A stretch of 64,000 nt of DNA from Chrysophaeum taylorii (taxonomy: Eukaryota; Sar; Pelagophyceae; Pelagomonadales; Pelagomonadaceae), in assembly GCA_029834535.1 (NCBI GenBank), contig JAQMWT010000431.1, positions 1 to 64,000 of the forward strand, written 5' to 3'. Shown in pieces: positions 8,838 through 57,600 of the stretch. The first letter of the stretch is position 1; each line of letters begins with the position of its first letter. The position numbers and the translations under genes are program-made. The notes beneath the pieces were generated by a model. The model was given only the letters and a program-made list of their open reading frames with translations, made no database searches and was not told the origin of the DNA.

Positions 8838-8929
8838 TTACCGTGCACAAATCCTTAACCCTACCCAGCAGTGTTGCGACCCATGACAATGGCCTCGATT
8901 AAAATCTGAAAATCTGAAAGCTCCCGTTA

Positions 8930-15178: not shown

Positions 15179-15181
15179 AAT

Positions 15182-16513: not shown

Positions 16514-16574
16514 CACAAGGCTACCACACGTTTGCTCCATACAGCAACTTCATCTCCTAGCCCACGAATACCTA

Positions 16575-28935: not shown

Positions 28936-28946
28936 CCTCCACCACC

Positions 28947-29960: not shown

Positions 29961-30011
29961 GAGTTGTAACCGATTAAGGGTAAGGATCAGGTAGGCCCGC
30001 GAGCCAGGCAT

Positions 30012-30510
30012 TGATCCTCCAAGCCGTCTACGGCGACCTCGCAGACTATTTTCACGACCCGCGGCTGCTCTTTCGGCGCGACATTCTCACGCCCCGTCGA
30101 AACGATGTTGTCGATGCTGACAACGCGCGCATGACCGCGGCCTTTTTTTCCCGGAGACGACGCGTCGGAGTTCTTTTCGGCCGACTAGGTTGGGTCGCAA
30201 GACGACGCCTCGCTCTTTACAGTCGAGTTTTCGACTCCCTGACAACCAACGGCATGCTGACTTTGATCGCGAGCTTAAAGTCTTCGCAACCTCGACCCGT
30301 CGCACGGCCACTGCAACGGTACCAGATGCGTGATCGATCGTGTCGTGTCACCGAGGCTCCTCCAACCTGTATCCCTTAAGGCCCGCCGACGCCAAACGAT
30401 CAACAAGAGCCATGGCCAGACGCCCCGCGAGGTCGGCGTCCTCTTGCCCAAGCCCGTCTTCTGTCACGTCCAGCTCTACGTGGCTCTCTGTCGATCGGAA
30501 ACCCCGAGAA
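30012..30510 (+). pseudogene. PIF1/Helitron helicase C-terminus, lone copy
   Basis: Contains VYGDLADYFHDPRLLFRRDI then LTPRRNDVVDADN (30020-30130), an LRNLDPSHGHCNGTR-like block in another frame (30280-30330), and RRRQTINKSHGQTPREVGVL with PVFCHVQLYVALCRS (30385-30500). These are the last conserved blocks of Helitron/PIF1 helicases. Frames change between blocks. It is the best copy for recognising the family, but covers only the end of a helicase. Confidence 0.75.
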
Positions 30511-30597
30511 TATGCACTTCTCAGTCGACGACTCCACCCTACCCCACACGTGCTGCGCAATACCGATAAGCCCCCTCCCGGCGTCTACACGCGCACT

Positions 30598-30945
30598 GTA
30601 GGTGAACTTACTGGGACCAGGTGAACTTACTGGGGTTTGAGATTGGGACTAGGTGAATTTAGTGACCAGGCGAACTTACTGGGACCAGGTGAACTTACTG
30701 GGGGTTTTAGAGTAAACTCAAGGTTAGCGGCGTGTGCGGATCAAAGCTGCTTAGATTGGCGGAGACGAAAGCGACGAGCTCGAAGGAGTGGGTGTGAGCA
30801 CGAGTGGGTTTACGCCGAACTTACAGGGGTTAGAGATTTGGACTATGTGAACTTACTGGCCAGGTGAACTTATATGAAACTTACTGGGATTAGGTGAACT
30901 TACTGGGGTTAGAGATTGGGGCTAGGTGAACTTACTGGCCTGCAC
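30598..30945. repeat. CCAGTAAGTTCACC minisatellite, inverted copy
   Basis: GGTGAACTTACTGGGACCAG-type repeats with the GTTAGAGATTGGGACTAG spacer and the same non-repeated core. This is the 3' end of the lone Helitron-like unit, the mirror of the blocks at 754 and 1797. Confidence 0.85.
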
Positions 30946-37100: not shown

Positions 37101-37263
37101 CCTGTGGTGGTGCTTCTGCGAGCGGGACATTTCTTAGGGATTGGTCCATCGGATGGGGTGCATCCTTTATGAATGAGACAGGAGCCAGTAGCAGTGCAAG
37201 GTCAGGTGACAGAACGTTTGCGTGGTCGAGTAATTGAGCGTTGGACCTGAGCATCGTCTGCAT
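34150..37263 (-). CDS. Giant Ser/Thr/Pro/His-rich ORF, unknown
   Basis: 1037 codons open on the minus strand. Very rich in Ser, Thr, Pro, His and Arg, without a recognised domain, zinc motif, signal peptide or membrane segment. Some short patterns recur: ELRGRISI near 36005 also occurs as ALRGRISI near 37605 in the neighbouring ORF, with similar codons, and LWPPD (36625) resembles LWPPPD (34390). This suggests an ancient internal duplication. Another minus frame (36140-35175) is also open, so composition lowers stop density, and coding is not proven. It lies between copia remnants and overlaps the upstream ORF by 62 bases in another frame. Confidence 0.4.
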   Translation of the reverse strand: MQTMLRSNAQLLDHANVLSPDLALLLAPVSFIKDAPHPMDQSLRNVPLAEAPPQDTKVHHEDTGKRTTIMRTISLRLSDHDETKLQLCLTPSPLEDKGRLSASQAPGPSLSLQSVLAHTISPPCTTADQAQANVSTLQSYAHPLESYKHGYLSQSGHCTTSVSRDTRSTHRSFATTSSHLMDGYDLEHEIIATLESHPRRNPTLESPQPLPQELWPPDATHVLMVSPLVSSKEFDCSRDKMQPPHATITAFSFETQAFTSCHLFTPIVPRHKATKIEVDCVPPSSLSATPDMLLPALLASPITSDSAPIVLYGVICHIPIKAQTPHRLQCNRDGTLTAPLGLDYEHCAIPMVHPPSTETHARLSHSTMPKHFLIHDTQDTVVSATAEAAPPTGARLRARFAIMVSRSHRQFEDSTQFELRGRISIPPTTRFVSIRISHSSYGYSGYIGTQFKARTEVPLSKDLCHTPRPDEYSSFLPASTRLPTTKSPTICDNTKFRHQCIQSHPRSFVSLSQVTPLKFQHSIIARFYPACCHMQTKFYHANANTSQLSPVSRNRCPPPNDSRTQSPLLTSLHVPPSTMLDVEDLHHCGSVTTQLHAKSLSSSDHISHLSTLLSESCFGHSSDSTSVSRSYDAFGSLLSVRTAGSILQNSEPNSRHCVSHPVDAFRSTREDNPQSPQAGHALCSTHSTASHCRTPLAPPSCVANQGKLTAMPIYFFIPTHSLLATVSQDSLSDSSCIVDRTSHHVHSSDIPRPQINPLLQHTLPTRCKLHSSRISTTPSRRMSPLSLTARFTRDAPRSLALVHQGTFDSGENASFDSDENDTGHEIHTGSVDTGSVDRHSSGLLYRTEYKRRDFDHIFEVNSPPGTDTIFKQSIAFRHFLPLPHSTAFSAQGTDSSAQDTRLYPPSYAIHSQTSVSAQSSFDDSHWRLTRGYEPKPTANLEYEPKATANLEFSYLWPPPDNFIPMSSSRYDYPHIVLDAHCLASAVPRYTQDNSFDTYVTGNSGSLIFQKQHRLARSHYDDYLTMSKPIWFNGHISS

Positions 37264-38584
37264 AGTCTGGAACCGTGCTGCGCAGTTGGTTTGCGTTGTC
37301 TGCTACATCAATGAGCTGGCTGGTGTAGCTGGCCGTTGTGGTCTTATCTTTCGTCTTGTCGTCCAATAGAGACTGCGAGATAGGACTCGTTGCTATGTGC
37401 GAGACTTTAAGTAGCTGTTGAGCAGCTGTTGAGAGCTGAGTGCTCTCTTGTCTGGCAGTTTCTGTTGCTTTGGAGTTCCAGAGACATGATTGCGCAGCTT
37501 CAAACGTCTTGGCATTGGGGATTGCCATAAAGTAATTCGCAAGTTCAAAGTCGGACGTCGGAAAATGCATCGAAAGACATGTGAGGTCACCAATTGAAAT
37601 ACGCCCTCGTAAGGCGTGCGCGACGTGGTGCGGGCGCGAGCGACGTGGGTTGGTGATCTGAAGGTCGTGAGATACGTTGCGGCGCGGAGTGTCGGTGGAA
37701 ATGACGAGTGTCCTGGTGTTAGAGGCGGTGACGCGGAGAGCATCGAAAAGCGTGTCATGCTCCAAGAGCGAAAGCGCGTGATGCGGGTGGTCCGAAGTCA
37801 GTGCCAAAAGGAGTGTGGCTCGCGGCTGACCTGTCTGCAAGGTAGGACAGATGGGCGCGTGAGCTGAGATCCCGTGGTGGAGAGTATCCGGCCTGAAATG
37901 CTTGGGGTCCAGTGCGGGAATTCGAAAAGAGGGGTCGCCGAAGGAGAGCGCAGTAAAACCAAGGGCGATGTAAGGGTCAGTCCTGCTGGGTGCATCCTTA
38001 ATACCGGAGATGCTGGGACCAGAGCAGTGAGTGCCGTAGTGACCAGGGTTGCCCTTAGGCATGTAGAGCATTCGAAGGTGCGGGCATGCGACATGCGTCC
38101 TCAAATGAGGAGTGACGTGCGGAGCCACAAGACGCTTTTGAGGGAGGCAACGTACGCGACTTGGGTGCGTGTTTGTGGTGGAGCCGGCAGCTGGCGTGGA
38201 GCGTTTGTCGTGCATTCCAGTGATGCGAAACTGCTTAGAGAAGTGGTTCAGTTGGAGCGAGCCTGTGCATAGTGCGCGTAGAATGTTTCCTGAGAGCGCA
38301 ACGTCGATTTTCCGGAGGCAGCGCAAGCGTGTGGCGTCCAGAAGAGAGCTATGCAAGGGGACATACAGGACAGAAGTGGTCGCAATGGAATCGTGCATAG
38401 TTTGCGGCTGATCGGGTCGTTCAGAACTCTCGAACTCTGTGTCTGTTACTGCAGCCATGGGGAAAGCTTTCCAGAGGCTTGGTCGCGGTGAGACATAAGG
38501 ATCGGCAGTCAAAAGGAGTGCGTCCTCTGACTGAGAGTTGGGGAGCGGGTGATCAGGTGTTGCGACTGGTGCTCGCGAAGACAT
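37202..38584 (-). CDS. Ser/Pro/His-rich ORF upstream of the giant ORF, unknown
   Basis: 460 codons on the minus strand, same composition as the next ORF. It contains HVAHALRGRISIGDLTCLSM, parallel to ...STQFELRGRISIPPTTRFVS in the downstream ORF, and ends in a basic RPRKRSVT. It overlaps the giant ORF in another frame, so the two may be parts of one gene joined by an intron or by a frame change, or independent. No family was recognised. The start is the first ATG; the true start is uncertain. Confidence 0.38.
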   Translation of the reverse strand: MSSRAPVATPDHPLPNSQSEDALLLTADPYVSPRPSLWKAFPMAAVTDTEFESSERPDQPQTMHDSIATTSVLYVPLHSSLLDATRLRCLRKIDVALSGNILRALCTGSLQLNHFSKQFRITGMHDKRSTPAAGSTTNTHPSRVRCLPQKRLVAPHVTPHLRTHVACPHLRMLYMPKGNPGHYGTHCSGPSISGIKDAPSRTDPYIALGFTALSFGDPSFRIPALDPKHFRPDTLHHGISAHAPICPTLQTGQPRATLLLALTSDHPHHALSLLEHDTLFDALRVTASNTRTLVISTDTPRRNVSHDLQITNPRRSRPHHVAHALRGRISIGDLTCLSMHFPTSDFELANYFMAIPNAKTFEAAQSCLWNSKATETARQESTQLSTAAQQLLKVSHIATSPISQSLLDDKTKDKTTTASYTSQLIDVADNANQLRSTVPDYADDAQVQRSITRPRKRSVT

Positions 38585-39023
38585 CCATCAAATCGTCACA
38601 TGGTGGTCGCATATGGTCCACCTGCTGAGCAGTGTCATCCAGTGCATCCAACCGAGAAGGTGGATGGTGGGTGCAGCAGCGAGCGCCGGTGAGCGGCAGT
38701 GCGCGCCTGTCTTCGAGGAGGGTAGGCGGCGAGGCGGAACCAGCTTCGAAGTGATCGGGGGCTGCTGATCGAGAGATATCGAACAAGGCGGGAGTGCCTG
38801 GTGAATCTGAGATGATACCTGCAGGTGCCGTGAGTGCCTGCGAGTATGTTGACCGTGGGACCGTCGACAGCAAGCGTGTCTCGTCCTTGTGGATTCGGCA
38901 TTGCGGGGTCATTGGTGGTGATTGGATCAGGCGGCTCATCTGGAATGTCGAGGAGACCATCTTCGAGACTAGTGAAGTGGGTCTTGTTTCTTCGCTGTAT
39001 GCATCATACCAGGGGGCTGAATC
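38553..39023 (-). CDS. Ser/Pro-rich open frame adjoining a copia LTR
   Basis: A frame open from within the family A LTR down to 38553. Only the part below 39024 lies outside the LTR, and it is as rich in Ser, Pro, Thr and His as the two ORFs downstream. The ATG lies in the LTR, so the ORF as drawn is a fusion by position and not evidence of a gene start. It may be the upstream part of the unknown gene at 34150-38584. Confidence 0.25.
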   Translation of the reverse strand, partial: DSAPWYDAYSEETRPTSLVSKMVSSTFQMSRLIQSPPMTPQCRIHKDETRLLSTVPRSTYSQALTAPAGIISDSPGTPALFDISRSAAPDHFEAGSASPPTLLEDRRALPLTGARCCTHHPPSRLDALDDTAQQVDHMRPPCDDLMDVFASTSRNT

Positions 39024-39518: not shown

Positions 39519-41352
39519 CTAACTAACTAACTTCGGACCTCTCCCGGGCATGGGAGCCAGGCTGGGCCGGTAGTAGCCGGTCCAGGATCACAGAGCAAAA
39601 ATCACACAGTTGGGGTAGAGGCGAGGGATGAAAGTGCATGGATGACGGACCGCCACTGCGCGCGGTCTTGTGCGAGGTCGTGCCACGAGTTGAAGGGGAT
39701 GTCGCATTTCCGGAGTGCCTTGGCGAGCGACCTCCCGTACGTCATCTGCGGAGCCCCCGGTGGGCGCTTGGAGCGGACCCAAGACGAGAGCATCTTGCGA
39801 GGGAGTCGGGAGAAGGGCATGCGGGCGACGTGACCGGCCCAGCGGAGCTGGCGGCGCGTGACGTAGACGTCGATGGACTCGAGGCCGAGGCGCCGCAGCA
39901 GGATCTCCGTTGAGATGTGGTGGAACCAGGTGTGTTTCCGGGTCACACGACACATGACGCGGGCGCACTGCGCGTGGAAACACCGCAGCCGGCGGAACAG
40001 GACCTCGGTGAGGCACCACGATTCCGCACCGTGAAGGAGGATGGCCAGGACGAGCGAGACATAGACGAGGCGCTTGGCGCGAGCAGAGACGGACTTCGAG
40101 GCGAAGATGCAGTCCCGCAAGGCACCGAAGGCCGGAGACGCCTTCTTGATCCGCGCGTCGACGTCTGAGTCGTCGCGGCAGTCGCGCGAGAGGACCGGGC
40201 CGAGGTACTTAAACTGGTCGACGACCGGTATGAAGCGGCCGCGCCCGAGCTCGATGTCCGAGAGGTTCGTGTCGTCGAACGACTCTGGGTCGCTGTACAG
40301 GTGTGCCGGGCGAGCGACGAACAGCATCTCCGTTTTGGACGCCGCTTTCGTGTGTCGGTTGCCGCGATGCACCTCCATGCCCCAGGCGTCGCAGTGTTCG
40401 ATGAGGCGCGGTGTCTCGCTGGCGGCGATGTGGCGGTCCCAGAAGAGAAAGGCAACGTCGTCGGCGTACGCCGATTCATCGAAGGGAAACTCGTCGCCGC
40501 GAGCGGACCAACCCCGGTTCGTCATCTGAAAGTCTTTCCGCGTACGGTAGACACACGGGCAGCGGCCATGGCGTCGTCGAAACGACGTCGTCAGTGCCGC
40601 CATGAACAGCACGAACAGGACGGGGCCCAGGACGTCGACCTGCTTGACGCCGATGATCGAGTCAACCGAGGCGACGACACCGCTGACCGAGAAGTGGACC
40701 TGGATTCGGTGGAGGCCCTTGATGACTGCGACGAGCTTCGGCGGGACGCCGAACTTCAGGAGCACCTCCCAGAGAAGCTCTCGCGGGACGCGGTCGAACG
40801 CCTTAACGAAATCGATGAACAGTACCCACGAGTCCTGACCGTGCTCACGCCGCTTCTTCAGCGCTAGCTTGAGCGAGAAGGTGGCGTCGGACGTACCGCG
40901 CTCGGGTCGGAAGCCACATTGGGACTCGTGATCGAGGGCCTCGCAGATGACGTTGAGTCGCGCACGGACGATGTTCTGCGCGACCTCGAGCATCATGATC
41001 CCGCGGTAGTTGCCCGGCAGGGAGAGGTCCCCCTTATTGGGGAGAATCCCGAGGAGGCCTACGTCCCACTCGGCCGGCTGGACTTCGGACTCCCAGAACT
41101 CGAGGACTACACGCTCTAAGAGCGGGAGCGTGCGAGCGTCGGTGGCGAGCGCCTTCCAGACCTCCGCGCGCAGGCCCGATTCGCCGGGCGCGGTGCAGTT
41201 CAGCTGACCAACGGCCCGTTTTATCTCCTCCTGCATCGGTGGTTCCCCGAGTTCCGGACGGATCGGCAACTGGTCAACGTCGTTGATCACGGTGGGGTCG
41301 TAGCGAGCTTGTCGACTGTAGAGCTGCTTGAAGTGTGCCTTGAACACGTCGG
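39519..41352 (-). mobile_element. 5'-truncated LINE inserted in copia 3' region
   Basis: 1834 bases flanked by an 11-base target duplication CAATGGAACAA (39508-39518, 41353-41363). It encodes most of the reverse transcriptase and the LINE C-terminus in one frame, from ADVFKAHFKQL to STPTV (stop at 39602). RT motifs: SQCGFRPERGTSD, WVLFIDFVKAFDRVPRE (first catalytic D), GVKQ.D..GPVLFVLF, and SAYADDVAFLFWD (catalytic DD). The C-terminal part has the GAESWCLT, CARVMCRVTRKHTW and RRQLRWAGHVARMP blocks common in LINE proteins. The 3' end is a short UTR and (GTTA)n tail, not poly(A). The endonuclease part is lost by 5' truncation. Confidence 0.92.
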
Positions 41353-41379
41353 CAATGGAACAAACAACAACAAAACAAG

Positions 41380-43438
41380 ACAAATTAATTATGATGTCCA
41401 GCGTGTTGTGATGTTGCGTAAAGAAGCGGTATCGGTATCCACAACATCAGATGTGTGGTCCAATTCATCCTCGCTATTATCGTCCAGTTCCTTTAACTCT
41501 GGAGAAGACGAATTGTGATCATCGGAGGATAGGTCGTTAAAAGTATTGTGCGTAGTCATTGCATCACTCAAGGTGACCAAGGGTGCCATAACAGACGAGA
41601 GGAAGGACATAGCAGCATCTGGTGTAAGAGCGGGTAGATCCAAAGCAGGAATAACACGATCATGTACATCAACATAGCTGTATGTAAACTGTGAGCTGCG
41701 TCGTCGATTAGAGCTCGCTGTGCCTCATTATACGTATCTGGAGGGAACTGTCCAATGAATGACGAGATGAGCGAACGAGAGATGATATGGACAAATACAG
41801 CAGAGGTCGGGATTATAGTGTCCTGATGCATCTGAAGACTCGACGATATGTTGTCTAACAAAGACACATGCTTTATGTTCTCGGTCGCTTGAGTATTTAA
41901 AGTTTCGTAAGCCTCTTGCATCTGTGTGAGAGAAGCTAGTGCAAGCGATAGTTGTTGATCTCGTACCATCAATTGCTGTTCGGTGTTAGTGGGACGTAAG
42001 GATAAAGACCGAACCTCTTCTTTTAATTTGTGTAAAGATTCAGCCATATTGTCGTTAGCTTTGTCTGGCGTGGGTTCAGCGGGTGGATTGTCGATCGGCG
42101 CTGGTGACACATCTTCAGAAGAGGTATTATCTGAAAAGGTATCAATTATTTTGGATGGGTAGCCAACTTGGACTAACACGTTTCTAAAGGCAGTTTGCAG
42201 TACAGGTGATAGTTGACGAAAATAATTAAGCATTGGAGGTAATGTCTCTGAGGAGATTGCGTTAAATTGATGGGAAACATCATTAACGAAGCGTTCGACA
42301 AGCACGTTAAGCAGCTCATCCGGGTTGGTTACTACACATACTCTATCTTCAACAGAATGTAACAAAGACCAAGCTGCTACAATAATCTCAAGATTCACAC
42401 TCGAGATAAAGGGCAGCTGAAGTAAAAGCATGGTGCTATCGTCAAGGTTAACAATGATTTAGAGGCATCAACTTGAAGGGATGTCGCAGTCTGCATGATT
42501 GCCTCTTTTAGCTGCCTATTAATAGCAATTTACTTACCAAGGCGGAGGATTATAGCTCTAGTGTGAGCAGCCGGATCATTAAAACAAGACAGTTGGAATG
42601 GCTGCTGGCTCTTGCGAATCAAGGCTATCCCATGGTGTGACCGATCGCACAGCGCACAAATCAACAAAAAGAAAGGGCGCGGTACGTCAAAGCAGTGGGA
42701 TGAGTGTTGCTCAGACGCGAGATGATCCTCAATAATTTTTCGAATCCTGTCAATTTTAAGTTCATCTTCATTACAGATGATGAGCACGACTGGTGTGCCT
42801 GGCATATCAGTTTTATTGTAGCACTTTGTACACGTCACATGTACTTTGACAACCCCTTTAATGGGTGGGAAGCGATGAAGACGTATGCCCTCGTTAGGAG
42901 ATATAGCGGGGGCGTTTCGGATACGCTTAGTTTTGACACACAACACTGAACTGAGATAGTGTACATTGTCTACAAACTCTGTCGGTTGTGCTTCCGTAAG
43001 CAGCTGCTGCGAAGACTTAAGCCAGCACTGGGGGTCCTTGTGTTGCGGAATAAGAAAGTTGGGTGGTGATGAACCAAGAGCAGTAACGTTCCCGGACATC
43101 ATCGCTAATACGTCAAACTTAGAGTGTTTGAGCAGGAAATACTCAGACTTTGCTGCTTGCGATTTAGACAGTTGTTGGGCAGTTGCCTTGGGCGCCTTGG
43201 GCGTCACGGGCGTATATTGATGTCCTTGCGCCACCGACAAATAGGTTCGATGTTTCCGATTAGGGGAACTAGTCGGTGCAACGCTTGGAGTTAGAGCACT
43301 AAAAGGTGGGGACGGTGACAGTATACCACCACCGCGACCACGGTTCATGGTGGAGTGGCGTCGGCTCGCAGAATCTTTGTTTTTAGTGGGATTCATCATG
43401 AGAGGAATCTCCACATCACATCTTTTATTGCATTCCAC
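41380..43438 (-). pseudogene. ORF3 of copia family A, second copy (fossil)
   Basis: Very close to 22412-24459: basic RGRGG start, CTKC knuckle, CALCDRSHHG knuckle, LLQLPFISSVNLE helical part, LHKLKEEVRSLSLR coiled coil and an acidic tail. Being open over long stretches in two copies supports a real protein. Few breaks. Confidence 0.72.
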
Positions 43439-43935: not shown

Positions 43936-44096
43936 CGCCCCCTCGAGATGTCTTAAGCGCAAGGTGCGACTGTAGAGCATCTCTCGAGAAAGATGATGAT
44001 GAAGAAGAAAGAAAGAAAAAAAAAGAAAGGAAGGAGAGTACAGTCTTGATGGTCTCAGAGGTCACACAAGAGGCATCAAGAGTGTAACAGGGTGTC

Positions 44097-46085
44097 TTAG
44101 GGCTTGGACTTGGTGGAGTTGAGAGTCGACTTGACGCTTTTGAACAGAGCATTACGAAAGACAGGTACGACAGACAGTGTGTTAAAGCTATCTGAGGTAG
44201 TGGACGTTACTGGTTCGAGGATATCGGTATCGTCTTCGTCAGCTTCTGCTGTCAGGCGGTGAACGCCAATAGTAGAATGGTATGGTACCATACGAAACGT
44301 GAGTGCAAGTAAAGCATTCAGTAGGGATGGCACTAGTGAGTCAAGTTGTATGGTGTCCAGTTGGTTTTCCAAAAAGTTGGACTCAGCGAACGGATCCGAG
44401 AGGATAGAAGGGTCTTCCAATTCACTTGCGAAGGGAATGCTTTGAATACACGAGAGCAAATTATCACGCAGACGATGGAGGTGATCGTCCGGGGAGGAAT
44501 GGTTGGCGGCATATTGGTCATGAGCTGTTGGCGTTAAGCGAGACAGTAGCTCTGTGATCTTGAACAGTGTTACAAGCAACACGTGTGCATTGGCTGTAGG
44601 AGGAAAGAGCCGGTTTTCCAGGGAGGTAATTGAAGCAATGGCAGCCTGTAGATCTGTGCGCAGAGATAGATTCTCAGCGCTGAGGGTGTTGACCTTGCGA
44701 ATATATAGGCGAAGAGTTTCCTGGAGTTGTTCGACTTGTTGACGCAATGCATCGACATCATCAGGCGAGGCAGAAGGAGCAGGGTGTGTCGATGGCGAAG
44801 ACATTTCCAGAGTAGATTCTGATGAGGGAAGTGAGTAGTTAAATGACGTTTCGGTCAACATATGCTGTGCAAGTAGGGGGTATTTCGTGTTTAGGAAGTG
44901 CAGAAAGTCTCGACGTTCGGCCGGAGTGTAGGTGGGGCCGAACATTACATCCAAGAGTGATGGCGGCTTTGTATCGTCTGAGGATGATACGTAGTCGTCA
45001 AGGTGTTGTACCCACGATTGGATAACAGTATGAATCGCATGGTGGTATTTGGTGGGCTTGAACATAGCCTGAGTTTTACGAGCTTGTGTTCGCTCGAGCG
45101 TTACAAGAAAGTTAAGATGCTCCAGGTGCATCTGAGTAATAAGCCGAAGATCCAGTGCCAATGGTAGTTGAGTAGTGGAGTCTGTGGGTGCATCGGTTAC
45201 TGATAAGACTAAATGAGCAAGTGACGAATGTTGCGTTAGACTGCTAGTCAAGAGAGTATGTAGCTCCTTTGGCAAATGATACGTGCGTATGATGGTTGCG
45301 CGTATATGACCAGCTGAGCACCCATCACAGGAAGGTTGGAAGGAAGTAGCATTACGTGCACATACGTTAGGTTGTATGGGCGCCTGATCAGTGTTGTGAC
45401 AAGCACAACAAATGTTAGTGGTGATAGTTGAGATGGGGATGTGACCATTCTTCTTGTGGTCATCTGTGTTGAGGTGACTCAGCACTTCAGTGGGGAGTTC
45501 ACTAGGTGCTTGTGACTTCGAATTATATGCGGTGGAAGCAAGAAATGTAGTCTGCCCCAAATCGTTGAGGCATTGCGTACAGTAGGATGACAGGATGAAA
45601 CGTTCACGTTTGGGGCCTCTGTAGCAGCCAATAGAAGTAATAGCAGGAGCAGCTTACCAAAATGTAGTAATGGGTAGGCGCATGGATATGAATGTCGTTA
45701 GTTCCACAAACAGTAAAGAGTCCGCATATTCATATATCGAGTTGAGTGCCGTAGAGATTTCCGCTCGCTTAGCAGAAGAGAGAAAGGGCGTAGCAGGAGT
45801 ACGGAAGCTCTCAGAAAGAGAGAATCCTCGTTCAATCAGGGCAAAATCCATGTTGAGGCCATCCTGGAGTGTTAGGGATTGTAGTATAACAGGTTCAGCT
45901 GGTGTCGGTGAGACAGTAGCAGCCTGGGAGGTAGTAGGAGTGACTGTGGTTATGGGTTGTCGCTTTTGAAACAACTTGGGAGAAGGCTCGGCCGTGAAAA
46001 GCGAACGTGGAATTGTCCTTCGAACGACTGGAGAGATGCCACGGCCACGGCCACGGGAGTGCCAAGAAAAAGACATGAGCGACAC
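44097..46085 (-). pseudogene. ORF3 of copia family B: cysteine knuckles and coiled coil (fossil)
   Basis: Open from 46085 to 45654 and from 45560 to 44097. The first part has an SRGRGRG basic start and a helical segment; the second has CCACHN and CDGCSAGH knuckles (near 45410 and 45325), a helical domain ending GPTYTPAERRDFLHFLNTKY, a coiled coil (DDVDALRQQVEQLQETLRLY, near 44750-44580) and an acidic tail. The order is the same as in family A ORF3, where SPVQQTAFKNVL matches TPAERRDFLHFL. Sequence identity is low, so conservation of layout implies function. No membrane segment is seen. Confidence 0.7.
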
Positions 46086-46183
46086 TCACACGACACGTAC
46101 AAAAAAAAAATGTGGCAAAAGAAGGTAGGGCCAGGGCTAGTTTGCTAGTTTAACGACGTTGCGGTGACTAGGGTTAGACATCT

Positions 46184-48463
46184 TCAATCCTGTAAAGGAT
46201 TGTCGTCAGAGGCATGATGCATACCGAGTAGAGAGCGAAAGGTGGAGAACTCAGCCGCAAGTGGCTTTGTAAAACCATCCGCCACGTTCAGCTTGCCGGG
46301 AACGTGATGGACTCGTATTTTCTGTAGCGAGATATACTCACGGATTTTGAACCATCTAGTCGACAGTGCCTTGGATCGAGAGGACCCACCTGGGTTATTA
46401 GAGGTGTGAACAGCGGCAGCATTGTCAGACAAGAGAGGTAGGCTTCTGATGAAGCGCATATATTCAGCAATTGGGCTGTCATTGTCATCGCAGTCAACAG
46501 GGTCAGCGGTGTTCTCACCATTAGCATTGTTGACGTAGAAGGTGGGGTTGACGACAAAGGAGAGTTCCAACAGCAGCTTGCGTAGCCAAACAGCTTCATC
46601 AGCACAAATACTGAGGGCAATCAACTCAGCTTCGTGAGTTGAGCAGGAGACAATCGGTTGAAGTTTGCTTTTCCAACCAATAAGGCAGTTGAAAAGATAG
46701 AAGACAAACCCGGTGGTAGATTTCCTATCTTCCTGTGCTAAGGAAGGGGCATTGTCAGCGTCAACCATGGCAACTAAGGGGTCAAACTGTCCAGTAGATA
46801 CATCCTGTGGTTGGTAGTCGACCACAGTGGATAGATCAATTCGATTAGCGGAGACAGTGCGAAGGTGAGCTTCAATGGCATTACCTTTAGGGTGAAACCA
46901 GAGGCGAAGTGAGCGGTTTTCCGGCTTCTTGAGGTAGCGAAGTAAATGCTCTAGCATTTGGACGTGAACATATGTGGGTGCATGCATACCACGCGAACAT
47001 CTGCCTAAGGCAAGGAGGATGGCAAAGTGCGAGTTGATGTACAACTCTGTTTCAGTGCTGGGAGTGCCATCTTTATACTTGAAGGACGATGACATAGGAT
47101 ATTTAAGCGGGGTCAGTTGCTGCAAGACTGGGTGATCAGCGAAGAGTTCATCCAGCTTGGCTTGCACATCCAGAGAAATGGAGCCGTCAGATGTGCGACA
47201 CACACGCATGCCTAGGAGGGTATGGACAGGTTCAAACTGCTCTACAGCATACCGTTTGTGGAGGGCATCCTGTAATTCAGTACGAAGAGGGTCGTCATTG
47301 GACACAATAACAATGTCGTCTACAGACAGACTGCATACGACGAACTTAGCATGTGCGGATACTCGAGCATATAGGCAAGAGTCCGAATGCAGGCGTTTGT
47401 AGCCAAGGCTACGGAAGAAGCCGTCTATCTCTTTGTTCCAAAGGGATGGTGATTGCCGAAGTCCATAAAGTGACTTCAGCAGTTTCGGTAGACGTCGGCC
47501 CTTGTACTTAGTGTCATCGGGGTCGATAAGCTTGATGCCGTCTGGTAATTGAACATAGACATTGGCATCGATGTCAGACTGAACGAAGGCGTTCGGGACG
47601 TCTGCATGGTAGACAGGCAATTGCTTGTATGCTGCGATAGCTAGTAGTACCCGGATTGCGGTCATGGTGGCCATGGGGCTGAAGGTACCAAAGAAATCGG
47701 CGCCAAGCGATGCTAGGAAGCCACGTAGTACGAGGCGAGCCTTGTGCTTAACGTATTTGCCTGCAGAGTCTGTTTTAATCTTCAGCACCATCTTGCTGTC
47801 AATAGGACGAGAGACACCGTCGGGTAAGGAAAGTTTGAAGCAGCCAAAGCGGATAATGTCGTGGAGTTCCTTGGCGATGGCCTTGAGGTAGGCGTGCCTG
47901 TTTTCAGGCGACAAACCGTGGAGGCACTTAAGTTTATATTCGTCAATGGAAACGTCCGCTTCTTGGACCTTATATTCGTCAGGACCAACAGTGGCTGGTG
48001 AATTATAGTTTAGCGACGTTGCGGTCGAGGCAGTGTGCGCAACTTCGGGATAAGCGGAAACAGCGTCAGTAGGAGTAGTAGGGGCAGATTCCAGTTGGAT
48101 ATGGATAGTAGGGTCGGTACGTAAGACCTGGGTGATAAACTCTGTAGAGACCAGAAGGTATTCCTCCAAGTCAGCCAGAGATGCAGAAGTAGCGCCAAAC
48201 TCGGATGAGTTGTGATCAATAAAGCTGGTCGGCGCCAGGTACGTAAGTGCATATTGTAAGGAAGAAGTGCCGAAGGCAGCAGCGTGTTCAGTGAACGCAG
48301 ATAAAAGGGGCTGAGGAATAGGGCACGTAGGTGAACCATCAGCAGTTAAAAAGGTTGCAGCTGGGATGCTGGATGCGCACTTGGCGTGGGCGAAGTAACC
48401 ATCGACGTGCGGGTAGCGGGCAAGTAAGTCAGTGCGCAACGGGAGAAGAAGACGAGCTAACAA
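46184..48463 (-). pseudogene. Copia family B reverse transcriptase and RNase H (fossil)
   Basis: A 759-codon open stretch. RT: KARLVLRGFLASLGADFFGT, a YHADVPNAFVQSDIDANVYV block, LLKSLYGLRQSPSLWN and SVDDIVIV. RNase H: VDADNAPSLAQEDRKSTTGF, WKSKLQPIVSCSTHEAELIA, VWLRKLL, and VPGKLNVADGFTKPLA at the end. These are the standard Ty1/copia blocks and are better preserved than in most fossils here. The start of the RT domain follows a Pro/Ser-rich linker at about 48500-48900. Confidence 0.92.
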
Positions 48464-48779
48464 CGCATGTTCCCCTCTGAGCAGATAGCAGACCAGAGGA
48501 TACCACCACGGAGATGAAGGGCGGAGAGGGCGGGAGACTTGAACGTAAGAAAGTGGTGGCGAAGATCCCAGCGGAAATCGGCGAGCTTGCCACCAGCGGC
48601 TTTGTAAGCACCAATAGTAGACGCTTGTAACCGGGCTCGGATAGTTTTCATAGAAGTGGCCTTGCGAGTGTTAGGCTGTTTGGAACCTGGGACAAGAATG
48701 AGGTCATCTTGTGCAAAAAGGTCTTTGTAAGAAGGAAGCAAGGGCGGCGGTGACATAGAGCCAGATTCGTCGGCGATAG

Positions 48780-49740
48780 CGTCAGAAGAGGGAGAAGAGG
48801 CCGGAGTAGGGGACGAAGAAGGAGGAGCTGAAGGAGGTGGGGAGTGCCCCTCTGAGGATGAGGAGTCCTTGCCCCCTCTGAATGACATGGTCTTGGATAG
48901 TGGTGTGGGGTGTGAGCGAGAAAGGCGCGGAAGGAGCGTGAGGCGGAGGAGCTAGTTCAGGATCAGGAGTAGGATGCTGCAACATGTAGAGGAATTGCAG
49001 CTTGGACGAAACACGAATTTGTCCGTTTTCAGGGTTGAGGACGACGTCAGCGAGATGGTCGACGCGTGGGGAGACGAGCGGGTTTTGCGCGTTGGCGCAA
49101 CAGAGATACAGATATTTGCGGCGGCACGGTTCCCACTTGTGGTGTTCATGGGGCTCCAATAGGAGGTAACATTCAGCGCCAAAAATCTTGAGCATATCGT
49201 GTTGGGGAGTGCTGAGTTGGTTGTAGAGTAGCTGTTGCGGACTCAGAATAGCATGATGAATGCGCTCGAGCGTGGCGTTCGGGAGAAGGTTATAGCTTTG
49301 AACGGTGTGTATCACCGCCCATGGGAACATGATAGCGGGTTCCACGATCTTGGCGCCACGATAGTGAGCATTAAGGAGAGAACGAAGGCGAGTTGAGGAG
49401 GCGGAGGCGATGAAACCGATGGCAGACTCAACTTCAAAGTTAAAGTGGTGCATGTACGGCGGGAAGGCAATGAGTTGAATGCCCTTATCGACGCGGTACG
49501 GGGAGGTAAAAAGAAGGCTTGGTCGCATTGAAATGCTTGTGCGGGTGGCGCTTGTTGTGTGCGATGCAGTCGGTGCATAAGTCGCGATATGGTATGTCAG
49601 AAGCAGAGAATCCAGGGCGAGCAAGTACGTTGGGGGCCTTGGCAGCGACGTTGTCGGGGCAGTGATGCACCCGGTGAAAGCGATTGGCACGTTCTTTGGC
49701 ATTGAGATATTCGGTGGATCCGTGTGCGAGGACTTACGAG
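48780..49740 (-). pseudogene. Copia family B integrase region (fossil)
   Basis: Matches 6600-7480 of the plus-strand copy: a HNKRHPHKHFNATKPSF zinc-part tail, TSPYRVDKGIQLIAFPPYMH, FEVESAIGFIASASSTRL (the E region), LPNATLERIHHAILSPQQLL and IFGAECYLLLEPHEHHKWEP. The core is incomplete compared with the other family B copy. Looks broken. Confidence 0.8.
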
Positions 49741-51000
49741 GAATGGGATGAGCGGGAATGTGCCGTTTGCGCCGAACATCGAACTTGAGTTCGGTGTCTA
49801 AGGCAGGGGAAGGCGGTGCGTCGTCATCCTGGTGCACAGCAGGGTCACTTGGAGGTGCATCCTCATTATCACGAGTAGCGAGAGTATCTTCGTAGGACGA
49901 AGATATATAGTTTAACGACATTTCGGTCAAGCAGTTGCTGGAAATAGACATCGTAGGAGATTGTGCCAAAGACAAGGTATCTGTGCTGCACGTGGTGGAG
50001 GCTTGGTCAACGGTCATGAAATTGGATACATAGGATTTCTTCGTCACGGCAGCAGTATGTTGGAAGGTAGGGTCCAACATAAGGGATTTAATATCGGCGA
50101 CGATGAGCGAAAGGTGCTTGTACAGAGTGCTGTACGTACCGGCAGGCAGAGCATTGCTGAGCATGTCACAGCAAAGATCATGGCGTAGAGACAAGGGGAA
50201 GATTCCTGTTGTCTGGTGTGGCTGTTAGCACGAATCAACTCCGGTCGAGTGGGGTAGCGTAATTTCCCGTTGCGAGGGTCGAGTAAAATAATATTGGCAT
50301 ACCCTCGGACGGTTGGCAATGGAGCAAGCATTGAGTGGATTTTAGAGCCGAGTTTGCGGTCACTTCCACGAAGATACCCTATATAGCGACTATGAGATAG
50401 GTGATGATCTTCCAGAGCAAAATGAGAATCCTTATAATCGAAAGAGTTGTCGGTGGCCTTGTAGGTAAGGCAGCCAGGCATCACGAGAGCGCATCTGGAC
50501 ACGAGGTTTTGTATGGCGGTGCCATAGGTGGTAGCGGAGCCAACTTGGGGAAGGGCTTGGACTATCCACAAGTAACCCATAAACGGCTCCAGATATATGG
50601 ACCTGTCCCGGTCGCGGGGGATGTCGGAAGCAGTGAACGTATACGTGCTTCCAAAGGCGTTGATGGGAGTTGGATTTTTTGGTGGTGGCGTTCTCTATGG
50701 TGAGGTTGCCGTCGGAATGGTGGCCACCAGTTAAGAAGTAGGAGTTGTGTGATGTTGATGAGGTTGTAAGTAATAACCTGTGTGACGGTTGGTTAGTTTC
50801 GAAAACGGTTATGTAATAGGACACAGGAGTGGGTGAGTTAGTATGTAAGCTTGCAAACACGTTATAGAGGATTGTAAAAATCTTGACGTGTATAGGATGT
50901 GTTGCATTGGGTAATGGCTCCATAGAGGAGCGTTTAAAGCACAACTGATGATAAGTACACTCGGATTGAACAGAGTGAGTACGTTGCTCGTGAGCCTGTT
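49740..51000 (-). pseudogene. Copia family B region before integrase, copy 2 (fossil)
   Basis: Same unassigned region as 17460-18400 and 32357-33383. Contains LTGGHHSDGNLTIEN, LSHSRYIGYLRGSDRKLGSK, SLRHDLCCDMLSNALPAGT and an acidic stretch before the basic RRKRHIPAHPIPRKS. No known domain was recognised; conserved across families A and B. Confidence 0.55.
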
Positions 51001-51830
51001 GTGAGTGAAGGCGAAGCAGTAACATATTGAGGGATTCAAGGTCAGCCATAGTAAGCTGAACAGAACCTGTGCGAGAGTAAGGTGCAAACGTTTTAGGAAC
51101 GGGGATATATGGAGGATCGGGGAACACCCGGATCCAGTCTTTGGATATGTGGTTAGGTAGCCAAAGGCGCTTGGGAATAGCTTGTAGATCATCCACGATC
51201 TTTAGGAAGGGGCGTGGATGGAGGATGGGCCACGATGATAGTTTAATTGGTCCAGTAGAATATCTGCGTGCGATGCATATCCACCTTTCTCTAGATTGGT
51301 AGTCGCCACAGAGGTAGGTCGGGAACCTGTCAACAACATCGACACAGTAATCAAGTGTAGTATGGATAAGGTTGGCCACTGTGATGTGGTCTTGATGACA
51401 GTATTTATGCGGAGGCGTCATCTCAGCCAGTAGTACCAAGGGCTGGAGTAGCTTGATGACAGACAGCATGCTGTCGAAAAGAGTCGTCCAGCAGGCTGTG
51501 TAAGTCTTCCGTCTTTTGCTGTTTTAGTAAATTCCTGTTTGTGCAGGGAGGAGTGATCTCAATTATATCACAATAGAATGTGCGCCTTTCCTCTGGTGAG
51601 ATTAGGTGAAGATGGTTAATAAAGGCGGGGAGAGATTCAAATAATAGTACAGTAGGAAAACGGTGGCGTAACATACGAACAAGCGTATCATCAGACTCAA
51701 CAACAACTTTTACATTGATATTTAAGCCTAAGTCATTAGTGGCTTGAGACAGGAACGCCGGAGTTGACAAACCAGAACAAAGTAACATGACAGAGGGTTT
51801 GCGGAGATTGGACTCTTGTGAGAGAAACAC
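51000..51830 (-). pseudogene. Cytosine-5 methyltransferase-like domain, family B copy 2 (fossil)
   Basis: The fullest set of motifs. SVMLLCSGLSTPAFLSQA (about 51795-51742, motif I SG loop), VKVVVESDDTLVRML (about 51715-51670, motif II), DIIEITPPCTNRN (about 51575-51535, motif IV with the PPC), LLAEMTPPHKY (about 51435-51400, motif VI with its E), LCGDYQSRERWICIARR (about 51315-51265, motif VIII QxRxR), and SVQLTMADLESL (about 51065-51030, like motif IX). Order and approximate spacing match Dcm/Dnmt enzymes. It sits between the protease region (ends 51846) and the unassigned region before integrase. Motif X was not found. Confidence 0.75.
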
Positions 51831-51845
51831 TGGGCGTGAGAGTAG

Positions 51846-52493
51846 TCAGGTTAATGGCTGCGTGTTTTGCTGAACAAATTTGTTCTGTTTCCGAAGATTG
51901 AGAACCAAAGGGCGAATCCACGGCCGATCTGGTAAAACTCGTTGGAGTAGGTAGTTGTAGTATGCCAGTAGATCCCTGTTTTCATGGTATCGCTTGAAGG
52001 GAAATGCAAGGGAGCGAAGTTCCAGCCGCTTGTCGCGCGCGATGTTGCAAGTGAGACAAGGGAGAGCGGGTAAATTAGCTGCTACATAGTGTATGGGTAT
52101 ACGTACATCTTTGTCTATGCGGCTCGTGACAGCGCTGAGCTTTGGCTCAGCTCGATCATTGAACACAGTGGTAAGGTTCGTCTGGTTCCACTCGAGCATG
52201 CTCAGGATAGCGAGATGTCGGTCATGCACTGGCTGAAGACATAAAGCGAAGTCGATCTTAACATAGCCAACTTGTGGATGATCTGGTAGGGGAATAACGA
52301 TGTTGCGTGTTAACATCATGTGTGATGCCCGTTGTTGTCCTGTTGCCGTCTGAATAACAATCGGCGCGTATTTGGAGTCCAATGGAATTATATGATTGGG
52401 TATTGCGAAATCGTAGGTGGACATCAATGAGATGGTAGCACAAGAGTCAAAATATAGAAAAGAGCAATGTGGAGGGACACTGTTTACCTTCAT
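51846..52493 (-). pseudogene. Copia family B protease region (fossil)
   Basis: Contains LYFDSCATISLMS (near 52450-52410), placed like an aspartic protease active loop, then TATGQQRASHMMLTRNIVIP, GYVKIDFALCL and strand-rich sequence, ending with the Cys/Arg-rich LPALPCLTCNIARDKRLEL. It aligns with family A from ADTCAS onward. It would process the polyprotein. Confidence 0.6.
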
Positions 52494-53994
52494 GTAGTTG
52501 GTGAGGAAGGCGTTTTCCGAATGTGGGCAAGTAGTGGAGAGGCTGGCTGTAAGAAGTTCTTCAGCAATAACAGATTCGTTGGAATAATGATCGGTTGAAC
52601 AGGTGGTGATGGTTCGTCAGCCTCATCAGCCATGCCGTGCTTTTCATCAAATGACGATAGCGAAGTATGATCGGCATCCCTTTTGGTTTCGGCTTGTGAT
52701 GCGTTGAGGGCAGATTGGACCTGTGAAGATAGCGAGGACAATAATGCTGGTGGTAAAGCCGAGATGGCGGAAGCGGTAAAGAGGTTAGGCACAGTATTGG
52801 AAGGATTACCCTGTGTGTTTGTAGTAGGAGGAGTTGCCTTTGGGGTGGGAGCAGTAACAACAGTATGGTGTTGTGGCTCCACGTAGTTTAACGACTTTTC
52901 GGTCGAGGATAGATGAACGTCTACATCATAAATGATGTCTTCTGCAAACATGAGCTGTTCGTTTAGACGAAGTAAACTACTGTTGTCCTCAGTAGATGTC
53001 GTTGACAGAATGTCAGCTGATTGTAATAGAGTCTCAAATAACTTGTTGATATTATGTTGTAGCTGAGTCGTGGTATCATTATCTGTCACATGTTTCGTGA
53101 GTTCGCTACACTGTTCTCGCAGGGTGTTTAAGGTGTGGTTTGTTCGATCTAATAATTTCATGTTAGACCGAGAGGACCTGTCAAAAGTGCGGGGGTAAAT
53201 TGGACGGTCATGGGACTGTCCGGCAGTTTTCTTGGTGACGTAAGAATCACCAGGACGATAATACGATAAATCGCTGCGAGAGAAAGGCTGGCGAGCATCA
53301 TTAGAGTTACGCAAGCGTCTAGCATTAAACGTGGAAGATGTACCAGGTTGGGACGAAGTGATGAAGGCGAGTGTGTTAGCAGTTTGAGTCAGACTTTTGT
53401 CTGATGAGTCCAAAGTGTGCGTAAGTAGTAACTTTGGCTTTGGTTGAGATGATAAACCTTCGACATAGGGTTGCCAAGAAACAGGGCGTTCTAAACGTCG
53501 TTTGTTCGACCCATTTGATACGACATTGTAAAGGTCTAATGCGTATTCTAAAATGTAGCTAGGGTTGGTAGGGTGACACAGTCGTTCAGCTTCTGGCACA
53601 GGTCGAGATGAAGATCGGGTTTCGTACATACAACACCAATCTACCCAACCACGATCGTAACGGCTGTTGCTGGTATTATAGGCATAATGCCGATGTATCT
53701 CTTCATATAATTTTATGCAAAGAGTGCCAAAGTCGAATTGAAGGTCAGTCTCTTCCTGGTTAAGTTGGTAAGAGATTTGCCTAAATGCTAGGACAGCTTC
53801 GATAAATACATGGACATACCAGTTAGGATTATAAACAACAGAGTTAAATTGCTGTTTCAAATAAGACACATCAGTAGTCGTAACAGACTCGTAGTGACTA
53901 AAGGCGATGAGCATAATAGCTCGAGCCTTGTTGGGTAAATAACTTTTGTCGTATACCTCACTGATGGTGGGCCAGGCCGCAAGTGCCGGTTTTC
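52490..53994 (-). pseudogene. Copia family B gag, later part (fossil)
   Basis: 474 open codons plus homology further upstream (GKPALAAWPTI, near 53990-53960). Aligns with family A gag: HYESVTTTDVSYLKQQFN, NWYVHVFIEAVLAFRQ, YDRGWVDWCCMYETRS, FNARRLRN and SYYRPGDSY. The second half is Ser/Thr-rich with helical segments (LLDRTNHTLNTLREQCSEL). Early gag is missing. No CCHC knuckle was seen. Confidence 0.8.
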
Positions 53995-54004
53995 CAACAC
54001 TTTC

Positions 54005-54403
54005 TAACTAACTAACTTCAGACCTCTCCCGAGCATGGGAGCCAGGCCGGACCGGCAGGAGCCGGTACGGTATCACAGAGGAAAATCACGCAGTAGGGGC
54101 AGAGGCGAGGGACGAGGACGGACTTGTTGATGGTGGACCGCCACTGCGCGCGGTCTTGTGCGAGGTCGTGCGAAAGCGTCGCAGGCCGCGGACGTGTTGG
54201 TCCACGAACAATCGACCTGTCCGTCGCGTTCTGCCCAACCGAGCGAACCCCATCCCAGCGCGGACTTTCCGGGTGCTAACCGGCCAGCCCGGGAGGCGAG
54301 CAGGCACCGTCTCACTCCGGGACGGCCGGGGCCGCCGCAGGGAGCAAGCGTGTTAGGCGCCGTCCTCCATCGCAACCGCCGGTTAGCGATCGCAGGGTTA
54401 GGT
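54005..54403 (-). mobile_element. Internally deleted LINE (5' and 3' ends only)
   Basis: 399 bases between direct repeats CAACACTTTC (53995-54004 and 54404-54413). In minus sense, the first 240 or so bases equal the 5' end of the LINE (57450-57665), and the rest equal the LINE 3' end with a GTTA tail. The join is near 54172, so about 3 kb of LINE, all of RT included, is missing. It is a RIME-like derivative. The left flank is copia gag, but the right flank is the other LINE copy, so only one side shows the original target. Confidence 0.8.
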
Positions 54404-54416
54404 CAACACTTTCAAC

Positions 54417-57124
54417 TTGCGGAGTGCCTTGGCGAGCGACCTCCCGTACGTCATCTGCGGAGCCCCCGGTGGGCGCTTGGAGCGGACCCAAGACGAGAGC
54501 ATCTTGCGAGGGAGTCGGGAGAAGGGCATGCGGGCGACGTGACCGGCCCAGCGGAGCTGGCGGCGCGTGACGTAGACGTCGATGGACTCGAGGCCGAGGC
54601 GCCGTAGCAGGATCTCCGTTGAGATGTGGTGGAACCAGGTGTGTTTCCGGGTCACACGACACATGACGCGGGCGCACTGCGCGTGGAAACACCGCAGCCG
54701 GCGGAACAGGACCTCGGTGAGGCACCACGATTCCGCACCGTGAAGGAGGATGGCCAGGACGAGCGAGACATAGACGAGGCGCTTGGCGAGAGCAGAGACG
54801 GACTTCGAGGCGAAGATGCAGTCCCGCAAGGCACCGAAGGCCTGAGACGCCTTCTTGATCCGCGCGCCGACGTCTGAGTCGTCGCGGCAGTCGCGCGAGA
54901 GGACCGAGCCGAGGTACTTAAACTGGTCGACGACCGGTATGAAGCGGCCGCGCCCGAGCTCGATGTCCGAGAGGTTCGTGTCGTCGAACGACTTTGGGTC
55001 GCCGTACAGGTGTGCCGGGCGAGCGACGAACAGCATCTCCGTTTTGGACGCCGCTTTCGTGTGTCGGTTGCCGCAATGCACCTCCATGCCCCAGGCGTCG
55101 CAGTGTTCGATGAGGCGCGGTGTCTCGCTGGCGGCGATGTGGCGGTCCCAGAAGAGAAAGGCAACGTCGTCGGCGTACGCCGATTCATCGAAGGGAAACT
55201 CGTCGCCGCGAGCGGACCAACCCCGGTTCGTCATCTGAAAGTCTTTCCGCGTACGGTAGACACACGGGGCGCGGCCATGGCGTCGTCGAAACGACGTCGT
55301 CAGTGCCGCCATGAACAGCACGAACAGGACGGGGCCCAGGACGTCGCCCTGCTTGACGCCGATGATCGAGTCAACCGAGGCGACGACACCGCTGACCGAG
55401 AAGTGGACCTGGATTCGGTGGAGGCCCTTGATGACTTCGACGAGCTTCGGCGGGACGCCGAACTTCAGGAGCACCTCCCAGAGAAGCTCTCGCGGGACGC
55501 GGTCGAACGTCTTAACGAAATCGATGAACAGTACCCACGAGTCCTGACCGTGCTCACGCCGCTTCTTCAGCGCTAGCTTGAGCGAGAAGGTGGCGTCGGA
55601 CGTACCGCGCTCGGGTCGCAAGCCACATTGGGACTCGTGATCGAGGGCCTCGCAGATGACGTTGAGTCGCGCACGGACGATGTTCGAAACGATCTTCTGC
55701 GCGAACTCGAGCATCATGATCCCGCGGTAGTTGCCCGGCAGGGAGAGGTCCCCCTTCTTGGGGAGAATCCCGAGGAGGCCTACGTCCCACTCGGCCGGCT
55801 GGACTTCGGACTCCCAGAACTTGAGGACTACACGCTCCAACCGCGGGAGCGTGCGAGCGTCGGTGGCGAGCGCCTTCCAGACCTCCGCGCGCAGGCCCGA
55901 TTCGCCGGGCGCGGTGCAGTTCAGCTGACCAACGGCCCGTTTTATCTCCTCCTGCATCGGTGGTTCCCCGAGTTCCGGACGGATCGGCAACTGGTCAACG
56001 TCGTTGATCACGGTGGGGTCGTAGCGAGCTTGTCGACTGTAGAGCTGCTTGAAGTGCGCCTTGAACACGTCGGCGTTCTCCTGTGGCGACGAGCACCTGC
56101 TACCGTCGGCCTTCGTCATCTGCACCTGCCTAGCCAATGTGGTCTTCGTGAGACCGCGTCGGAGCCGTCCGACCGTATTCCAGTATTTCGAGGTGCCGCC
56201 GAGCGACTCGCTTCCCGCGTTGAGTCCGGCGCACAGACGAGTAATCCATCGCTCTTTCGCCCGTGCAACGGCCTTCGCGAGCCGCGACTTGATCGCCCGA
56301 AGGTCGTCGAGGATCGTGGACGCCGAGCGAAGACGGCGCCGGGCACCGAGCGAGAGCACAAACGCGTGGAGGGAGTTGCGCCGCTCGATCAGAGGCTGGA
56401 GCTCTTCCGCCGCGTCCTCAAACCATCCGGGTCGGAGGCGTCGGGTCTTCGGCAGTAAGGCGTCAGAGGCCGAGGCCGCCGCCCGCGCAAGGCGGGAGTA
56501 CGGCGAGGACGGCGAGCCCAGGTCGGCGTCGGGTACCTCGTCCGTGGCGTCGGTCGGTGCGTCGTCGGTCGCGTTGTCATGTGACCCACGGCCCAAGCCG
56601 AAGATGTCGAGCACTTTCGAGCACCACCGGCGCCGGAATCCGAAGCGCGTGCTTTCTGAGCGCAGGGGAGCGTAGTCGAGGCGCGCCAGAGAGGGCCGTG
56701 TGCCAGGAGGCCGTGCGAGGCGGACTTTGACGCGCAGGATGCACTTGAGAGCGCGGTGGTCCGAGTCCACGAGGCTGCTGGTCAAACCCACATCAGCGAA
56801 CGGGTGCACGTCGCGCCGCCGTGAGATCATGTGATCGACCTGGTACGTTTTCCAGGAGCGCGGGTGCAGCCACGACGCGTAGGCGCGCTTGCGGAAGAAC
56901 GTGCCGACCGACGCCAGACGCCGTGTTGCGAGGAACGTGTGGAGACGGCGGCCAGCGTTGTTGACGTAAGGCGCCCCGTAGGGCCCACAGGGGCCGTCGA
57001 CGACGTACTTGGAGCGCACGCCGAGAGCCGCGTTCCCGTCCATCCCCAGGACGAGGATGTCGTCCGGCCGCCGCGCTTGAAGCGCAAGGTCAATGTCGTC
57101 GAAGAACGCGTCCCACTTCTCCAC
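54417..57124 (-). pseudogene. LINE ORF: endonuclease C-terminus, RT and C-terminal region
   Basis: One open frame of about 900 codons. Residues 1-130: later APE motifs (VLGMDGNAALG, GPYGAPYVNNAG, a WLHPRSWKTYQVDHM strand and LVDSDHRALK). Residues about 350-680: RT with SQCGLRPERGTSD, WVLFIDFVKTFDRVPRE, GVKQGDVLGPVLFVLF and SAYADDVAFLFWD. Residues 690-900: KYLGSVLSRDC, HGAESWCLTEVL, CARVMCRVTRKHTW and RRQLRWAGHVARMPFSRLPR. The RT copies the LINE RNA at a nick made by the endonuclease. The frame start at 57124 is internal to the endonuclease: the upstream part lies in other frames. Confidence 0.9.
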
Positions 57125-57600
57125 TTCGCGCGGTTCCGACAGGAGCGTAAGCGCTCATGACGAAGAGGCCGAGGTCTCGATCGTCATCGTCCTGGACATC
57201 GAGTCGCAGCGCAATGACTCGCGCAGATGCGCGGATAACGGTGCTGCCGCTCGCGTGCCACGCCTGTTGCGCCGCAGGGGACAGCACCACGGCCACACCT
57301 TGGCAGCCGCGGGAAGACTGCTCGGAGGCTGCCAAGCCGGAACAAACAGCGACGTAGCGACTCGTTGCCGGTGAGCCACGTCTCCTGCAACGTGGCCGCG
57401 AAGGTGTCCCGCCGCCGTAAAGATGCGAACAACTCTTCTTTCTTCTCGTCGCGTCGCAGACCGCGAACGTTTTGGTCCACGAATAATCGACCCGTCCGTC
57501 GCGTTCTACCCAACCGAGCGAACCCCATCCCAGCGCAGACTTTCCAGGTGCTAACCGGCCAGCCCGGGAGGCGGGCAGGCACCGTCTCACTCCGGGACGG
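57125..57600 (-). pseudogene. LINE endonuclease N-terminal part, frame-disrupted
   Basis: N-terminal APE motifs are present on the minus strand but in two frames. NVRGLRRDEKKEELFASLRR then AATLQETWLTGNES (the metal-binding E and TW) read in one frame from about 57480 to 57365. GVAVVLSPAAQQAWH, ARVIALRLDVQD and LFVMSAYAPVG read in another from about 57310 to 57130. A further frame change near 57125 leads into the long ORF. About two frameshifts therefore inactivate this copy. Confidence 0.75.

Follow-up and report, generated by a model that had tools for sequence, protein, structure and literature searches.

Captures of cytosine-5 DNA methyltransferases (C5-MTases) by algal retroelements are already on record, as the preliminary description of the DNA studied here had stated: PMC5890265 (2018) reports them in long interspersed nuclear elements (LINEs), DIRS elements and gypsy elements, and states that the Copia elements of Symbiodinium have no DNMT domain. 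Here we analyse a window of 64,000 nucleotides of the pelagophyte Chrysophaeum taylorii (contig JAQMWT010000431.1, positions 1 to 64,000), in which a broken retrotransposon, element B, carries a C5-MTase-like domain inside pol. Within the open-licence literature, the new points are the capture of a C5-MTase by a long terminal repeat (LTR) retrotransposon of the copia type and the position of the domain; the copia case is probably a further, separate capture.

According to PMC5890265, KnitGypsy-Dnmt3 of Klebsormidium nitens is likewise an LTR retrotransposon with a C5-MTase inside its pol polyprotein and under purifying selection, but it is a Gypsy element with a Dnmt3-clade enzyme, whereas here pol has the copia order and the domain, to which no clade is assigned, lies between protease and integrase. 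SymbioDIRS-Dnmt3 of Symbiodinium shares with our elements an MTase and a reverse transcriptase (RT) in one Pol open reading frame (ORF), a high copy number and purifying selection, and differs in being a DIRS element with a tyrosine recombinase; SymbioDIRS enzymes gave CG methylation in yeast. SymbioLINE-Dnmt, also from Symbiodinium, is a high-copy retroelement with an orphan-type C5-MTase, but it is a LINE, with the MTase in ORF1 and depleted of CpG, a depletion not clearly seen here. Orchid Ty3/gypsy elements with an N6-methyladenosine RNA demethylase domain (PMC9289625) resemble the present case as LTR retrotransposons that gained an epigenetic enzyme domain, and differ in being gypsy elements and in the chemistry of the demethylase. 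One sentence of PMC12344493 assigns some DNMT3s to 'LTR Copia and DIRS' elements with a reference to the 2018 paper, although that paper has Gypsy; we read the mention of Copia as a slip, behind which a copia case possibly stands. The consulted portions of the Ectocarpus and Phaeodactylum papers contain no report of a copia-DNMT element, and no other such report was found.

The six motifs on which the preliminary description had based its reading were all located, in the same order, on the minus strand at 51794-51035 between protease and integrase (Table 1), which confirms that MTase-like motifs lie inside pol of element B. The domain does occupy the span that had been given as 51000..51830, its real extent (about 51794-50846) reaching slightly beyond it. 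The order along the element is gag-like ORF, protease, (TGA), MTase, middle region, integrase, RT and RNase H, and the Ty1/copia assignment follows from the presence of RVT_2 (E 4.6e-42) and the integrase upstream of the RT. Because the domain is split over two frames (51845-51423 and 51523-50432, the switch falling at 51531-51430) and is preceded closely by a TGA, this copy is broken. A Pfam scan gave nothing above the curated cut-off for the gag-like ORF and no protease match. In a search of 44000-54500, around this one broken copy, ungapped direct repeats of at least 60 bases that could represent LTRs were not found.

Taken motif by motif, the C5-MTase reading is supported. In alignment A3 the PC of motif IV is present in 8 of 8 rows, and it is also invariant in alignment A2; the preceding residue varies, from PPC in element B to HPC in copy 2 of the window and in L003, and APC in the relative P0002. 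The Glu of motif VI, read as EMT in family B (the genomic relatives of element B), is invariant in A3, as are the Gln and both Arg of motif VIII (in family B QSRER, QYRER, QARER or QSRGR). Motif I, the S-adenosylmethionine site, usually reads FxGxG in C5-MTases; here it is CSGLS, with the first Gly retained and the Phe and the later Gly not. The domain motifs are in register with those of the host's own C5-MTase-type proteins.

Homologues support a place of the domain among C5-MTases. A search of 5.8 billion proteins gave 1,657 candidates, of which two proved to be relatives, with about 40% identity, and a profile search added a third; collections of viral and prokaryotic genomes held no relatives. 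The Pfam profile DNA_methylase (PF00145) scored P0001 at E 4.4e-4, P0002 at 6.1e-5 (the sole one over the cut-off) and P0003 at 0.0026. The NCBIfam dcm model gave E 8.7e-9 for L012, a locus of the second family described below, and 0.17 for P0003, with no match for P0001, P0002, L020 or the three window pieces. The window pieces themselves had no significant C5-MTase match in Pfam, in NCBIfam or among PDB sequences; these pieces are C5-MTase-like by the link through their relatives and not by direct Pfam match. A profile of family B had a C5-MTase as its best row in the PDB, at E 0.57. In the fold comparison, DNA C5-MTases, which dominate that part of the PDB, made up most matches, dehydrogenases being also among them.

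A survey of the whole genome (70.8 Mb, 697 contigs) revealed a second element family with the domain. Family B occupies 109 distinct places (111 rows, from which two short fragments adjoining larger matches were removed), and PF00145 marks 57 places above its cut-off, with no overlap between the two sets. Two of the 57 (L009 and L010, contigs C634 and C621) we take, from their motifs, to be host-like single C5-MTase genes of DNMT2-like and DNMT5-like type, respectively, and the host may thus have cytosine methylation of its own. Ten of the other 55 were examined (L011-L020), and all ten belong to a single family, P. Its EN in motif VI is invariant (alignment A4), only one Arg of motif VIII is kept, and in L014, L015 and L020 a single frame contains both a protease-type DGGAS motif and the MTase, with LPCQH and with ENVPP or ENAPP. 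PF00145 matched 5 of 5 scanned frames at E 1.1e-9 to 2.4e-8, and at E ≤1 the P profile found C5-MTases in 14 of 16 PDB rows (best E 0.0025); a protein search with residues 140-430 of the L012 frame found no relatives. None of the 57 PF00145 places had RVT_2 within 8 kb among the 150 of 1,670 RVT_2 candidates that were scored, the candidate set also used for family B below, and the shared domain order suggests that family P may be of the copia type. By eye, the middle region of family B (residues ~340-700 of the L008 frame), for which three other copies gave no Pfam match, is similar to the corresponding region of family P.

The two families are connected by profile comparison. A B profile built from P0001-P0003, L005, L006 and L008 matched frames of all 10 P loci with a best E of 2.3e-10, against 1.1 for the best reversed decoy (1,011 frames and 1,011 reversed). 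After trimming, hhalign scored B against P at 62.4, compared with a mean of 15.5 and a maximum of 28.2 for 40 shuffles of P and a maximum of 21.5 for 40 shuffles of B, with 19% identity and with the E, PC, E/EN and late motifs in register. An earlier hhalign E of about 1e-24 was discarded as an artefact, as shuffled controls came out nearly as high owing to a gappy tail. The C5-MTase reading of the preliminary description is thus borne out by homologues, by a second family that Pfam recognises, by decoy-controlled profile tests (in one direction) and, more weakly, by the fold comparison.

The domain is part of the element. The 109 family-B places gave at least 33 pairs of MTase and RVT_2 in which RVT_2 follows the MTase on its own strand at a distance of no more than 8 kb; the spacing is 3,197-3,333 bp in 20 pairs, and no RVT_2 was found upstream or on the opposite strand. 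With RVT_2 taken from the scored candidates, the count of pairs is a lower bound. On contig C42 both matches are reported in a stop-free frame of 1,691 amino acids, in L008 a single frame runs from the TGA across the whole MTase up to the start of the integrase, and in L004 and L005 a frame that starts within the MTase extends as far. The ratio of nonsynonymous to synonymous substitutions (dN/dS; Nei-Gojobori, frames unaltered) was 0.12-0.36 over 21 pairs of family B (eight sequences and 28 pairs, of which the seven with element A were saturated; L002 and L007 excluded) and 0.12-0.38 over 21 pairs of family P (seven of the ten loci), and pairs with dS >0.37 gave 0.12-0.22, all from frames chosen for being open and biased towards conserved ones. 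The MTase domain is under purifying selection as the elements multiply.

A further constant feature precedes the domain. In 10 of 10 copies (L001-L008, of which L001 is copy 2 of the window, together with element B and the divergent element A; these ten are related), a TGA closes the protease frame, and the MTase comes after it without a change of frame. An ATG comes immediately after the TGA in all eight loci, and not in the window's elements B and A. As the next in-frame Met of element A lies inside motif I, we infer that, in this element at any rate, read-through is likelier than re-initiation. No TGA precedes the MTase in three frames of family P examined.

Taken together, we consider it probable that these are copia elements in which a C5-MTase directly follows the protease in the domain order. 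It would be released by the element's own protease or remain tethered to integrase and RT in the particle, and would methylate cytosines of the element's own complementary DNA (cDNA) either ahead of integration or in its course. Through read-through or re-initiation, the conserved TGA probably keeps the output of MTase-pol low relative to gag-protease. The element may benefit because methylated cDNA would resemble host DNA or would determine the chromatin state where it inserts. Our best guess is that the MTase travels with integrase and RT and methylates the cDNA before insertion, as PMC5890265 argues for its DIRS elements. A broader version, in which a copia lineage, old enough for its families to have diverged to about 19% identity in the domain, keeps a standing C5-MTase in pol for self-marking, at a dose set by TGA recoding, we put forward only tentatively and regard as rather doubtful.

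Several results weigh against this account. PF00145 found nothing significant in the window pieces, L006 or L008 (E 0.18 for element A), so that the Pfam check proposed in the preliminary description, where absence of a match in every copy was to count against the domain, nearly turned out that way. In the converse search the P profile found no B frame at better than E 0.71, and a reversed decoy scored 0.38. The copia scores of element A are weak (rve E 0.0014, SH3_retrovirus 4.7e-4, RVT_2 0.06, all below cut-off). The three stretches with an MTase have an observed/expected CpG ratio of 0.86-0.96; the ratio is 1.0 for copy 1, which lacks the MTase, and 1.1-1.3 for the window's gypsy and LINE stretches, a mild difference that could come from codon use. 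C-to-T changes among copies are not raised at CpG compared with other C (0.041 and 0.032-0.047, respectively, in family B; 0.067 and 0.059-0.093 in family P), transversions in family B being somewhat higher there (0.062 against 0.036-0.042). CpG deamination as a trace of self-methylation is therefore not seen in the mutation patterns, and methylation in another context, methylation of RNA or lost activity may apply instead.

The lack of such a trace would fit a C5-MTase homologue that acts, like DNMT2, on RNA, either the genomic RNA of the element or its tRNA primer, rather than on cDNA, and RNA methylation is suggested for the LINE captures in PMC5890265. We nevertheless consider this unlikely, as the fold matches are mostly DNA C5-MTases, albeit in a part of the PDB that these dominate, and the B profile scores higher with the host's DNMT5-like than with its DNMT2-like protein (31.5 and 21.8, uncalibrated for these targets; the P profile scored only 15.3 and 19.0). 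It is likewise improbable that the fold is catalytically dead or weak and retained for nucleic-acid binding or particle structure in pol: the departure of motif I from the usual glycine pattern, the HPC of copy 2 and L003 and the marginal Pfam scores of family B point that way, but relatives only about 40% identical retain the Cys, the motif VI Glu and the Gln and Arg pair of motif VIII, and a binding role alone would not need the Cys. That the domain is no methyltransferase at all, its motifs having arisen by chance in a common Rossmann-like or unrelated domain, would agree with the unmatched window pieces, the dehydrogenases among the fold matches and the non-significant converse search, but is made very improbable by the Pfam matches of the relatives and family P, the B-P profile results and the alignment with host C5-MTase-type proteins.

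Within the window, the preliminary description had counted three copies; the MTase-like domain does occur three times, in element B, copy 2 and element A, the last of which it had not included, while copy 1 lacks the domain: its profile, run over all window frames of at least 60 amino acids, matched the other three places only. Long frames downstream of the copia RT or in inverted copies (44100-45653 on the minus strand, 23389-24456 on the plus strand and 41571-42458 on the minus strand) gave weak coiled-coil-type Pfam matches only and are perhaps an extra ORF of these elements.

Table 1. Features of the copia-type elements in the window.
Feature	Position	Strand	Remarks
Element B: gag-like ORF, first ORF, 505 amino acids	52493-54007 (lower end also given as 52490)	-	role inferred from position
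Element B: retropepsin-like motif DSCAT, YFDSCATISLMS	52419-52454	-	motif reading; in frame 52616-51846
Element B: TGA stop directly before MTase	51846-51848	-	frame unchanged on both sides
Element B: C5-MTase-like domain, broken	50846-51794	-	homology, fold comparison
Element B: motif SVMLLCSGLSTPAF	51753-51794	-	motif reading
Element B: motif VVVESDD	51687-51707	-	
Element B: motif IV ITPPCTNRN	51531-51557	-	catalytic-type Cys
Element B: motif VI LAEMTPPH	51407-51430	-	ENV-type Glu
Element B: motif VIII GDYQSRERW	51281-51307	-	QxRxR
Element B: motif VQLTMADLE	51035-51061	-	
Element B: middle region, MTase to integrase finger	49672-50845	-	
Element B: integrase HHCC zinc finger	49554-49670	-	motif reading
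Element B: integrase core and SH3-like part	after HHCC finger to ~49140	-	SH3_retrovirus E 9.4e-5, below its cut-off
Element B: copia RVT_2 RT and RNase H part, 828 amino acids	46184-48670	-	RVT_2 placed at 47162-47830
Copy 2: MTase-like frame, 376 amino acids	31151-32281	+	single frame; motif I out of frame; HPC for PPC
Element A: divergent copia-like element	~13905-22373	+	
Element A: TGA before MTase	16511-16513	+	
Element A: MTase-like frame	16581-17456	+	SPCTNRN, EMTPQH, YQARERW
Copy 1: only the integrase part and the beginning of RVT_2	5858-8899	+	begins downstream of MTase

The rest of the window is rich in retroelements, with a LINE-like endonuclease-RT frame (54401-57154), an RVT_1 frame (39605-41446), parts of which match it at 98-99% identity, and a gypsy element (25227-29141) in which no MTase was found, all on the minus strand. 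Also on this strand, 34153-38587 holds two long Ser/His/Thr-rich frames (1,050 and 461 amino acids) without Pfam matches; a family-P profile match to the frame 34153-37302 (E 9e-7) was set aside, as it left PC and ENV uncovered in a Ser/His/Thr-rich frame. A 288-amino-acid minus-strand frame at 10712-11575, which contains a P-loop-like GDPGIGKT and matches nSTAND3 weakly (E 0.0088, below cut-off), we presume to be akin to Crinkler-type proteins. Positions 1-2718 form a tandem array of units of ~1.04-1.05 kb (copies at 290, 1326 and 2377), with a partial inverted copy of the unit at 29977-30721.

The copies in this window are broken, and the combination of retroelement and C5-MTase is known so far from other kinds of element. 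Retrotransposons are normally what cytosine methylation acts upon, and elements that themselves bear the enzyme therefore raise the question of what use methylation is to the element. The copia case, with its high copy number and its domain under purifying selection, presents this question in a genome of 70.8 Mb that is small enough for tests of self-marking.
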